Shown here piece after piece: positions 26,308 through 29,586 of a DNA stretch of 33,827 nt. This stretch comes from a virus. Both the position numbers and the translations under genes were made by a program. The stretch lies in the IMG/VR virus record IMGVR_UViG_3300042465_004269, positions 1 to 33,827 of that record. One strand, written 5' to 3'. The notes beneath the pieces were generated by a model. That model made no database searches and was not told the DNA's origin. It saw only the letters and a list, made by a program, of their open reading frames with translations. Numbering within the stretch: the first letter of the stretch is position 1; the number at the start of each line of letters is the position of its first letter.

Positions 26308-27057
26308 TTAACTTGATAAATTTTCAAAATATTTTACTATTGCTAATTTTTTACACTGTAATTCAATAAAATCCTCATTTTTCATTCTTTTACTAAAGTC
26401 TTTTGCTTCTAAATGACTTAATTTATTTAATCTATAAATGTTATCTTCTTGCACAATTTTAATTGTTTCTAATATTTGTTGTGCAGTAAATTTCAACAAT
26501 CCTTGCTTTAAAAGTATTCCAAAAACTTTGTCAGCGTTAAAAACCTTATTAAAATCTTGTCTTTTACTTTCCATCCAATCCTTTCTGGTGAATTCTACTA
26601 TGTCATTCTCTGACAGTTGTGGTACAGTCATAGTTTCTATTGATTTATAACTTTGGATCTTTCTAATGTCATTAGCTTTAGTCCTATATGCGTTCATGAC
26701 TTGACCTATAAACTTAGGACTGAATTTTTCATAATGTTCAACACTACAGTCTAACTTATTTTGCACAGCAAGTTTAAAAGCAAGTTTAAATTCATCAATT
26801 GTGAATTGTGGATAACTTGATCTTATAAAGTCTTCTATGATCATAAACTCTTCTGCCATAGGAGGATTTGACAGTCCAATTAATGTAAAAACATAAGCAA
26901 GACCTTGTTTTAATGTTTGCGTAGAAATAGTTTGTATTTTTTCTCCATTAAAAGCATCTACTATTTCATGATCGTGTTTAGCTATTAACCCAGCTTTTAA
27001 GACTTGCAATTCTTTGCTCTGACTTGTTGCCAGAACTTGTTGTAGATTTATTTCCAT
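26308..27057 (-). CDS. Putative replication accessory protein (249 aa)
   Basis: 249 residues, all helical and without cysteine-rich or ATPase motifs. It contains LKQGLAYVFTLIGLSNPPMAEEFMIIEDFI, then FTIDEFKLAFKLAVQNKLD and FSPKFIGQVMNAYRTKAND. A gene of this size and place, directly after an initiator-like gene, is often a helicase loader, but no such family is recognisable. The start overlaps the initiator gene by 80 bases, and the next ATG is at codon 67 or so, so the long overlap appears real. One perfect DnaA-type box lies inside it. Confidence 0.6.
   Translation of the reverse strand: MEINLQQVLATSQSKELQVLKAGLIAKHDHEIVDAFNGEKIQTISTQTLKQGLAYVFTLIGLSNPPMAEEFMIIEDFIRSSYPQFTIDEFKLAFKLAVQNKLDCSVEHYEKFSPKFIGQVMNAYRTKANDIRKIQSYKSIETMTVPQLSENDIVEFTRKDWMESKRQDFNKVFNADKVFGILLKQGLLKFTAQQILETIKIVQEDNIYRLNKLSHLEAKDFSKRMKNEDFIELQCKKLAIVKYFENLSS
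26807..26815. promoter_or_regulatory. Single DnaA-box match
   Basis: TGTGGATAA is a perfect complement of the consensus TTATCCACA. It lies about 450-650 bp from the iteron clusters, inside the putative replication accessory gene. A single 9-mer can arise by chance; it deserves mention because the phage encodes a DnaA-type DNA-binding domain. Confidence 0.3.
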
Positions 27058-27589
27058 ATCTAAGTTTATTTTTTATCCAAGTATTTACTCTTCTTTTTAC
27101 ATCAAAAAATTTTTCCATTTCATAACGCAATTTACCACTTTTTGACGGTTCTGTCCAATATTCTAAAAATTCATCATAAGAATCTTCTAAAATAGCTTTA
27201 TACTCTTTTATATTATTTATAAATATATCTTTAGTAGTTATAGTTTCAGTTTCCATATGCATAGGCATATGCTCAGCATATGCTAAGGATATGCTATCAC
27301 TTTTAACTGTTTTTGCATTAGATCTTCTACTTTCAGTAAATTTCTTGCGTCTTTCAGACTCATCAAACATTTTTTTGTTTATAAACAGACCTTCTTTTTG
27401 ATCAAATTTTTCCCAAATATCAGAGTCATATGCTTTGCATATGCTTAGCATATCCTTTTCAGTTAACTTGCCTTTTTGATGTTGAAGGCATAACAATCTA
27501 ATGTATTTACCAACTTGGTCATCTGTCATAGTAAATGTACCAGACAAAAAATCTGAAGTGTAAAATAGCACGGCTGGATCTTTAGACAT
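26978..27589 (-). CDS. Replication initiator-like protein (203 aa, DUF1376/O-like)
   Basis: 203 residues. The N-terminal 60 residues (DPAVLFYTSDFLSGTFTMTDDQVGKYIRLLCLQHQKG) match the winged-helix lead of DUF1376-like phage replication proteins. A variable middle (about 85-120) is followed by a C-terminal helical part (YDEFLEYWTEPSKSG, VNTWIKNKLRYGN). The gene itself contains two groups of 11-bp repeats, as lambda O contains its own origin. So it is the likely initiator, binding the iterons and recruiting the host replisome. Its start codon follows a structured RNA by 12 bases. Confidence 0.75.
   Translation of the reverse strand: MSKDPAVLFYTSDFLSGTFTMTDDQVGKYIRLLCLQHQKGKLTEKDMLSICKAYDSDIWEKFDQKEGLFINKKMFDESERRKKFTESRRSNAKTVKSDSISLAYAEHMPMHMETETITTKDIFINNIKEYKAILEDSYDEFLEYWTEPSKSGKLRYEMEKFFDVKRRVNTWIKNKLRYGNKSTTSSGNKSEQRIASLKSWVNS
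27254..27295. repeat. Iteron cluster 1 inside the initiator gene (4 copies)
   Basis: ATATGC begins at 27255, 27267, 27278 and 27289, spacing 12, 11 and 11 bases. The unit is (G)CATATGCTNAG; GCATATGC is itself a palindrome. The spacing is about one helical turn and not a multiple of three, so the repeats encode different residues each time, which argues for selection on DNA rather than protein. Confidence 0.75.
27427..27455. repeat. Iteron cluster 2 inside the initiator gene (3 copies)
   Basis: The same 11-bp unit recurs at 27428 and 27439, with a third degenerate copy (ATATCC) at 27450, spaced exactly 11 bases. It lies about 170 bp from cluster 1. Together the clusters are the best candidate for the phage replication origin. 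Confidence 0.7.
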
Positions 27590-27600
27590 AAATAAAAAAT

Positions 27601-27679
27601 GGGCGTCAGAATCCCAGGTAATGCGACTACCTGTTCATCCTCAGCCCAATATTGTAAACCTTGCAATGTCGCATATTGC
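27601..27679 (-). ncRNA. Structured intergenic RNA with predicted kissing loop
   Basis: In the 98-base gap between the DnaA-like and initiator genes the minus strand forms hairpin 1, GCAAU-AUGCGAC-AUUGC (27679-27663), and hairpin 2, CAGGUA-GUCGCAU-UACCUG (27633-27615). The two 7-base loops are perfect complements of each other, so they can pair. Hairpin 2 is enclosed by a longer stem ending GGGC (27647-27644) / GCCC (27604-27601), with several internal pairs, and followed by AUUUUUUAUUU just before the initiator AUG. It could be a terminator, an attenuator or a switch on initiator translation. No known RNA class was recognised. Confidence 0.65.
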
Positions 27680-27687
27680 GTTTTAAA

Positions 27688-28116
27688 TTAAAATTGACCT
27701 ACAAATATACTATATTTTTTAATCTCTTCTTCGATTTCATTCATTTTATTTTTGTACCAATCTTCAGTATCAATCATATCAGAAGCTTTTTTAACATTGT
27801 AAATGACAGTTGTATGATCTTTTACTCCAATTAATGGAGCAATTTCAATTAAAGAAAGCTTTGTATATTTTTTTAAAATATATGCCGCTGCTTTTCTTGC
27901 ATGTACATGTGTATTTTTACGATTTTTTTCTGTTATATCAATATCAAAAACATCTTGAACTAAATCTACAAGTTTATGAGCTGTTATAGTTGTATTTACA
28001 GATCCTACAGCAAATTGATCGTGAATTAAATTAGCATTCATTAATGTTTTATGCAAAATTCTTAAACTCTTCACTTGATCTTTGTAGTATTGTACTAAAT
28101 TGTTTTCTAATTGCAT
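27688..28116 (-). CDS. DnaA domain IV-like DNA-binding protein (142 aa)
   Basis: 142 residues. Residues about 70-115 are a clear DnaA domain IV: HARKAAAYILKKYTKLSLIEI, then IGVKDHTTVIYNVKK, with the DHTT signature at 100-103 that contacts the DnaA box. The AAA+ ATPase domain III is missing; the N-terminal 60 residues are an unrelated helical segment. So it can bind DnaA-box-like DNA but not assemble as an ATP-driven initiator. It may mark the phage origin or occupy host DnaA boxes. It precedes the structured RNA and the initiator-like gene. Confidence 0.85.
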   Translation of the reverse strand: MQLENNLVQYYKDQVKSLRILHKTLMNANLIHDQFAVGSVNTTITAHKLVDLVQDVFDIDITEKNRKNTHVHARKAAAYILKKYTKLSLIEIAPLIGVKDHTTVIYNVKKASDMIDTEDWYKNKMNEIEEEIKKYSIFVGQF

Positions 28117-28586: not shown

Positions 28587-28981
28587 TATAATGATATTTT
28601 AGCTTTCTCCCATGATAAAATAGATCTTATAGCATCAATCTGATGAACAGATGAAGCGTTTATACGATCAAATGCATTTTTTAAACGAGACCAATCTCTT
28701 GCCTTACTTTTAATCCACATATTAACTGTTGATGTTGCCATTTTTCCATCCATAATCTCATGTATTTTGTCACCAATCTCCATGTCAATAACACATTCAA
28801 TTTTATAGTCTGCTGCTGTTCTATATTCACCAGATTGAGTCATAGCAATGTTTAGAGTATCTAATCTATTAATCAGTGAATCGTGATAGTCAGGAGAATC
28901 ATTTTTAGGTAATGGTTTTTGTAAAAAATCCATCATACGTTCAGCTTTTAAAGTAAGTTCTTCTAAAGTGTATTCTCTCAT
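28586..28981 (-). CDS. Hypothetical protein of the recombination block (131 aa)
   Basis: 131 residues, helical, with MREYTLEELTLKAERMMDFL at the N-terminus and MATSTVNMWIKSKARDWSRLKNAFDRINAS in the second half. The second half could be a DNA-binding helical bundle, but I recognise no family. Its stop shares a base with the next ATG, and its ATG overlaps the ERF stop by 4 bases, so it is translated together with the annealing protein. Confidence 0.6.
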   Translation of the reverse strand: MREYTLEELTLKAERMMDFLQKPLPKNDSPDYHDSLINRLDTLNIAMTQSGEYRTAADYKIECVIDMEIGDKIHEIMDGKMATSTVNMWIKSKARDWSRLKNAFDRINASSVHQIDAIRSILSWEKAKISL

Positions 28982-29586
28982 TTTAAAGTTTTTTTAATGT
29001 CAGATTGATTATAATTTAATCCCATTGCAATTCTATCTTTATCTTCAATTTGATTTGCGATTAATACTTTAAATGCTTTATTGTATTGATCCCAAGTAGT
29101 GTATGAATCAACTAAATTTGCCATTTTAGTTTTTTTCTCTTCATCATATAAAGTGTTTTCAATCATGGTAATTAACTGTAATCTTTTTTCATCACCAATC
29201 TCGTCTTTGTGATCGTTAGTTGAATCAGCATCTTTAGTATCATCAATTGCAAACAGTCCATTTAAAGCATATTTGCGCGCGTACGAACTTGCAGATCCTG
29301 TGATCTGTGCGGAATCCATGCCTTTTTTAACTTCTTCTTCTCTTGCATAACCAGTTGTAGAAATATAATCACCGTCATCTTTATGCAAAGTTGCGGTTGC
29401 TTTTACATAGATCCTATCACCAATTAAAACCACTTCATCACTTATGGTGAGTCCACAGTTGTTTTTATGACAAATAGGTTTTGCCGCTTCAATTATATCT
29501 TCGGCAGATCTAAATTTGTAATTACCAAACTTGTTCATTTGGTTTTTAGGAACTTTAAGTTCCTTTTGGATTTGAATTAAACTCAT
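28978..29586 (-). CDS. ERF-family single-strand annealing protein (202 aa)
   Basis: 202 residues. ERF family motifs are clear: an N-terminal NKFGNYKFRSAEDIIEAAKP, a middle VKATATLHKDDGDYISTTGYAREEEVKKGM, and MDSAQITGSASSYARKYALN, followed by LFAIDDTKDAD. It anneals complementary single strands in phage recombination, useful for end repair, circularisation and concatemer formation. No phage exonuclease of the lambda Exo type is adjacent; the DEDD exonuclease at 30644-31390 could be the partner. Genes downstream include the SSB-tail protein. Confidence 0.92.
   Translation of the reverse strand: MSLIQIQKELKVPKNQMNKFGNYKFRSAEDIIEAAKPICHKNNCGLTISDEVVLIGDRIYVKATATLHKDDGDYISTTGYAREEEVKKGMDSAQITGSASSYARKYALNGLFAIDDTKDADSTNDHKDEIGDEKRLQLITMIENTLYDEEKKTKMANLVDSYTTWDQYNKAFKVLIANQIEDKDRIAMGLNYNQSDIKKTLK

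Follow-up and report, generated by a model that had tools for sequence, protein, structure and literature searches.

A covarying kissing-loop RNA, attenuator-like in layout, ahead of phage replication initiator-like genes

Described leader RNAs and the phage locus

The kissing complexes of ColE1 RNA I/RNA II and R1 CopA/CopT form between molecules, using 5–6 bp stems with fully paired 7-nt loops. In the plasmid attenuators pT181 repC and pIP501 repR, an antisense RNA drives termination before the initiator gene, with kissing in pT181 (PMC4878617, PMC4981023). Satellite phage P4 (CI RNA, seqA and seqC) achieves premature termination upstream of its replication genes by pairing leader segments (PMC4825925), and HK022, also a phage, has the put RNA, two hairpins with which an early transcript opens (PMC9378689).

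The window, meaning the whole stretch of DNA that was analysed, is a 33,827-base record of an uncultured virus (IMGVR_UViG_3300042465_004269; ~30% G+C), with the majority of its long reading frames on the minus strand. Directly ahead of an initiator-like gene lies an element of two neighbouring hairpins whose 7-nt loops are exact reverse complements (Table 1). It has the stem and loop geometry of the ColE1 and R1 complexes; unlike these, the kiss is intramolecular and sits in a phage leader. Likeness to pT181 and pIP501 extends to the position (leader of a replication initiator gene), a terminator-like end ahead of that gene and loop–loop kissing as the key contact, whereas the plasmid partner is a separate antisense RNA and the phage leader holds both loops, with no antisense promoter motif and no conserved anti-terminator pairing. 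As in the P4 CI system, complementary leader segments lie upstream of phage replication genes; in place of a processed antisense RNA, the phage leader uses a short loop–loop kiss of two covarying hairpins within one leader. With HK022 put it has in common two hairpins at the transcript 5′ end. By analogy, the leader resembles an attenuator in its logic, and we assign it to neither the pT181/pIP501 nor the P4 systems.

Scanned for neighbouring hairpins with stems of at least 5 bp and fully complementary 7-nt loops 17–90 nt apart, the window contains one pair, versus 0.04 in shuffled windows (both strands); none of 100 shuffles had such a pair with at least three G/C in the loop. Folded as a single sequence, the element forms both hairpins as well as the outer stem (z = −2.4). 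The first-pass annotation had placed the element at 27601–27679, which is correct overall and leaves out only the outermost U–A pair (27648/27600); by the same pair, its outer stem GGGC/GCCC is present and extends one step further. Its other observations hold at the window coordinates: complementary loops on neighbouring 5-bp and 6-bp hairpins, a U-rich stretch before the initiator start (U6 at 27599–27594, AUG at 27589) and a G+C content high for this genome (~42% versus ~30%).

Table 1 Features of the kissing leader and its surroundings, in window coordinates
Feature	Position	Strand	Basis or context
Upstream gene with DnaA C-terminal domain (PF08299)	27688..28116	-	Context, outside the RNA
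Promoter −7-like motif TATATTTG (TAnnTTTG, Bacteroidota type)	27702..27709	-	In DnaA_C gene end, 22 nt before hairpin 1
Whole element: hairpin 1, linker, outer stem enclosing hairpin 2, U6	27679-27594	-	
Hairpin 1, 5 bp (GCAAU/AUUGC)	27663..27679	-	Covarying stem; all 5 pairs double-changed, broad alignment
Kissing loop 1, AUGCGAC	27668..27674	-	Complementarity to loop 2 100% in both alignments (28 and 26 rows)
Single-stranded linker, 14 nt, conserved A/U motif ACAAUAUU	27649..27662	-	Near-invariant columns, alignment A1
Terminator-like hairpin: outer stem, internal loops, inner 2-bp helix, hairpin 2	27600..27648	-	RNAalifold and pair counts
Outer stem UGGGC/GCCCA	27648-27644 with 27604-27600	-	
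Inner 2-bp helix	Pairs 27639-27609 and 27638-27610	-	
Hairpin 2, 6 bp (CAGGUA/UACCUG)	27615..27633	-	Covariation; G-U pairs present
Kissing loop 2, GUCGCAU	27621..27627	-	As for loop 1
U6 tract right after outer stem	27594..27599	-	At least 93% U at positions 1–5, 78 leaders
AUG of initiator-like gene	27589-27587	-	Ten bases after outer stem
Replication initiator-like gene, 203 aa, weak DUF1376	26978..27589	-	
Iteron-like AGCATATGC repeats in initiator gene, left cluster	27260..27295	.	Putative origin
Iteron-like AGCATATGC repeats in initiator gene, right cluster	27421..27456	.	Putative origin

Covariation of the stems and of the loop–loop helix

An IMG/VR protein search, combined with a pattern built from the internal loop, yielded ~40 contigs with the same element, positioned between the DnaA_C gene and the next start codon wherever sequence sufficed to show both. 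Searching with the initiator N-terminus enlarged the family to 87 distinct leader regions (IMG/VR); all element-bearing sequences come from uncultured virus contigs. The layout is common to nearly all 87, with ~16 different loop pairs complementary over at least 6 bases. Exceptions are few: L519 has only 5 complementary bases, L455 has no hairpin 1, and L586 and L587 have no leader. A scripted count gives 13 loop pairs, among them GTAGGAT/ATCCTAC, ATGGTAC/GTACCAT, GTCAGAT/ATCTGAC, GTCGGAT/ATCCGAC, GTTGCAG/CTGCAAC, GTAGCCG/CGGCTAC, GTGTCCG/CGGACAC, GGGCAAT/ATTGCCC, AGGCAG/CTGCCT and ATGCAG/CTGCAT; inspection by eye adds GAACGAC/GTCGTTC, GAGCGAC/GTCGCTC and an 8-nt pair in L529. The kissing helix is 7 bp long (6–8 in subtypes). 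In the window lineage the two loops have traded places together, compared with most relatives (ATGCGAC/GTCGCAT versus GTCGCAT/ATGCGAC).

Among 28 distinct near relatives, 644/644 pair cells hold standard pairs and 16 of 23 pairs have changed on both sides. The more demanding set of 26 diverse leaders keeps 97.9% of cells paired, with both-sided changes at 20/24 pairs; sliding the partner, as a control on this set, lowers pairing to 34–47%. Double changes affect 5/7 kissing pairs (alignments of 28 and 26 rows) and, in the hairpin 2 stem, 5/6 pairs (alignment A1) and 6/6 pairs (alignment A7). RNAalifold alone recovers the same stems, including the 2-bp inner helix (G46–C78, and C/A/G47 to G/U/C77, in alignment A7). 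The defining trait of a kissing-loop RNA, loop complementarity kept through compensatory changes, is found throughout the alignments: the kissing helix of the 26 diverse leaders is 100% paired with zero G–U, and the family holds ~16 loop pairs. The first-pass annotation had read the element as a kissing-loop RNA, a reading that a lack of compensatory changes in homologues would have undermined. Such changes are abundant, decisively so, and covariation extends to the hairpin stems, the outer stem and the kissing helix. In comparative terms, the predicted leader structure (two hairpins, kiss and outer stem) is well shown.

Loop identity has also changed repeatedly. A protein tree of 59 initiators calls for 18 or more changes of loop type, with 17 types in all and both loops changing together, and two relatives (L441 and L452) with 98% identity over their first 91 residues have different loop types. 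These repeated concerted changes are the strongest comparative evidence for a real loop–loop contact. The leader is a widespread phage RNA with covariation unusually strong for a kissing loop, and its natural set of ~16 loop pairs lets loop swaps test directly what the kiss contributes to termination or translation.

Strand asymmetry bears on the nature of the element. All G–U pairs, found in stem 2 and hairpin 1, have the coding-strand sense (22 cells across both alignments, some sequences shared), and the mirror-image A–C pairs are nearly absent from the same stems, an exception being the frequently unpaired outermost position of hairpin 1. Because G–U pairs are confined to the coding-strand sense, the element appears to act as RNA. 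Double-strand DNA binding sites or single-stranded origin hairpins would find some favour in the nearby iterons and replication genes, and in the two 7-mers being one site in opposite orientations. We regard this reading as hardly plausible: stems and outer stem covary, a promoter motif precedes the element and a start codon follows it, and the 7-mers themselves vary freely from one relative to the next. In every case they form the loops of covarying hairpins, which likewise disfavours the protein-binding DNA sites that had been raised as an alternative at first.

Terminator-like end and regulatory readings

Ahead of hairpin 1, TAnnTT[TC]G is found in 73/78 distinct leaders versus 4.5% of shuffles. 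One subtype set has it 2–6 nt from hairpin 1; in the other set the gap is 11–22 nt and the motif overlaps the upstream gene end. Given the strand sense of the G–U pairs and this promoter motif, the element is most likely the entire 5′ leader of a transcript. An early transcript that opens with two hairpins recalls HK022 put (PMC9378689), and the leader could by that token bind RNA polymerase and render it termination-resistant for the early operon. We consider this very unlikely, as the U-tract and the fixed distance to the AUG would have no role. Put is not known to require or show loop–loop pairing, or to have a terminator-like U-tract before a start codon.

Near its 3′ end the leader has at least 93% U at each of the five positions that follow the outer stem, and 65/78 leaders place the AUG 9–11 nt beyond that stem. 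In 75/83 leaders a GC-containing stem plus U5 lies no more than 16 nt from a start codon, versus 1/251 other starts in the same contigs; the leader-less relatives L008–L010 and L586–L587 also lack the U-tract. Positions −16 to −1 of the leaders are without the A-rich signature of other genes (A frequency in leaders versus other starts: 17% versus 59% at −3, 37% versus 68% at −11 and 7% versus 63% at −10). By default the RNA folds with the outer stem closed, at a mean probability of 0.94.

Stem and U-tract lie at the start codon and are absent where the leader is absent, which makes an attenuator the best single reading. Comparison gives good support to the layout: a promoter motif, then hairpin 1, its loop paired with the apical loop of the longer hairpin, in which a GC-rich outer stem runs straight into U5–7, with the start codon ~10 nt past the stem. 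The second hairpin and U-tract would serve as an intrinsic transcription terminator just before the start codon, and the kiss in the nascent RNA may decide or tune whether polymerase stops or reads on into the initiator operon. This balance would set the amount of initiator made. We give a probability of roughly 0.5 to the element being a cis-acting, structured, attenuator-like 5′ leader of a phage replication operon. Through such a leader, RNA tertiary structure would be tied to how phage DNA replication is controlled, here in uncultured phages apparently of Bacteroidota hosts.

Several observations fit attenuation less well. A conserved anti-terminator helix, sought across the leaders, was not found; in truncated leaders the terminator 5′ arm is paired with a mean probability of 0.47, with no common partner identified. 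The U-tract is weakened in a small number of leaders (L518, L521, L530 and L021). A consensus terminator scan gave no match at the leader, because the hairpin is long and interrupted and the scan allows loops of only 3–8 nt. The fixed 10–11 nt spacing from stem to start would fit translational control as well, the main rival, in which the kissing structure would mask or present the start region, folding would govern 30S access and the U-rich spacer would be the ribosome landing site. The narrow spacing speaks for it, as does a start codon position that is unchanged when the first gene is exchanged. Its spacer, however, is U5–7 rather than the A-rich sequence preceding other genes of the same contigs, and U directly after a GC stem is a terminator signature; we hold translational control to be possible, and tentatively so. 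A Shine–Dalgarno sequence or small open reading frame (GGAGGATG) marked by the element was considered separately and dropped, neither spacing nor reading frame being conserved.

Since the loops are reverse complements, each leader could also pair with any other of its type, and the leader might act as its own antisense RNA, a copy-number or immunity device working in trans. Terminated leader RNAs of ~100 nt would rise with phage copy number, kiss sibling nascent leaders on other phage genomes and drive their termination, stopping initiator synthesis, with the loop sequence as specificity code, as in plasmid incompatibility or P4 CI RNA. Consistent with such a code, variation is greatest at the loop centre, the loop ends being conserved, and codes differ between phages with 96–98% identical initiator N-termini. 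An intramolecular kiss should nevertheless outcompete pairing in trans, and the spacing kept across leaders (hairpin 17–22 nt per arm, linker 11–18 nt) is what closing a ring in cis would call for. A search for TAnnTTTG on the opposite strand, covering consensus promoters up to +150 from the initiator start, found it in 0/58 (8% of shuffles). We judge action in trans unlikely, and the copy-number-like switch suggested by the first-pass annotation is, as a switch between molecules, unsupported so far, given the missing antisense motif and a conserved spacing that fits a one-molecule kiss. If it were true, the fast-changing loop pair would be an identity code for which co-infecting phages regulate each other.

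First genes, distribution and surroundings

The protein downstream of the leader was initially called an initiator, which agrees with our comparisons. Its alternative N-terminal form in relatives is Lin1244_N, matching named-phage proteins annotated ‘replication initiation protein’. From these annotated relatives and the iteron-like AGCATATGC repeats inside it, we class the gene at 26978–27589 as replication-initiator-like. The two clusters of palindromic repeats are probably the phage origin, a putative assignment.

The leader is not tied to one protein. It precedes differing initiator N-termini (KDPA type and Lin1244_N types), and in L591 (also L307) a DNA methylase gene (PF01555; 572–2189) lies between leader and initiator, its start codon directly after the U-tract. 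An HNH endonuclease-like gene occupies this place in L461 (1679–2008) and L479 (1667–2008), inserted exactly where the start codon lies, and may represent a homing or cassette insertion. As the first gene varies (initiator, DNA methylase or HNH), the leader would serve the operon rather than one protein, and exclusive binding of the leader by the product of the first gene is unlikely. The original description as a leader of the initiator gene stands in that the element sits ahead of the initiator, and is refined to a leader of an operon with a variable first gene.

Rfam 15 gives no family at gathering threshold for the window and nine loci of other subtypes (best sub-threshold match 14 bits, cut-off 155), in keeping with the early remark that no nameable riboswitch or ribozyme matches. 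No description of the leader was found in the open-access literature, subscription papers and preprints lying outside the scope of the search. There was no element match by blastn against named phages, nor any match by tblastn of the initiator against plasmids, and a pattern search of genome contigs gave chance matches without hairpins. A scan with GGGCTGAGGATGAA was set aside as too unspecific. Covariance models R1 and R2 detected no convincing copy in ~390 genomes each, a set drawn from the phylum and the class to which two Bacteroidota genomes belong and containing no positive control; R1 gave two borderline matches at E 0.05–0.07. In the upstream sequence inspected, relatives from phages of Porphyromonas, Enterococcus and Riemerella and from two faecal contigs have no obvious kissing leader, and R2 does not match them. 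Subtypes L449, L499, L514, L521, L529 and L012 share the blueprint and are not recognised by R2, so single descent of all subtypes is not proven.

Other gene starts in the fetched contigs are A-rich at −16 to −10 and −3, in Bacteroidota start-codon style. These A-rich start regions support a Bacteroidota host; judged only by promoter and start-codon style, the element-bearing phages probably infect Bacteroidota.

In the initiators of the window and of L014, L021 and L011 the N-terminal domain is exchangeable (DUF1376-like or Lin1244_N), the C-terminal part FFDVKRRVNTWIKNKLRYGN is conserved and the leader ahead is the same. In the close relatives L008–L010 (3001 and upstream), initiators that are 64–65% identical have no leader and directly follow the DnaA_C gene. 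The gene cluster of the window also encodes an ERF-superfamily recombination protein (PF04404) at 28978–29586.
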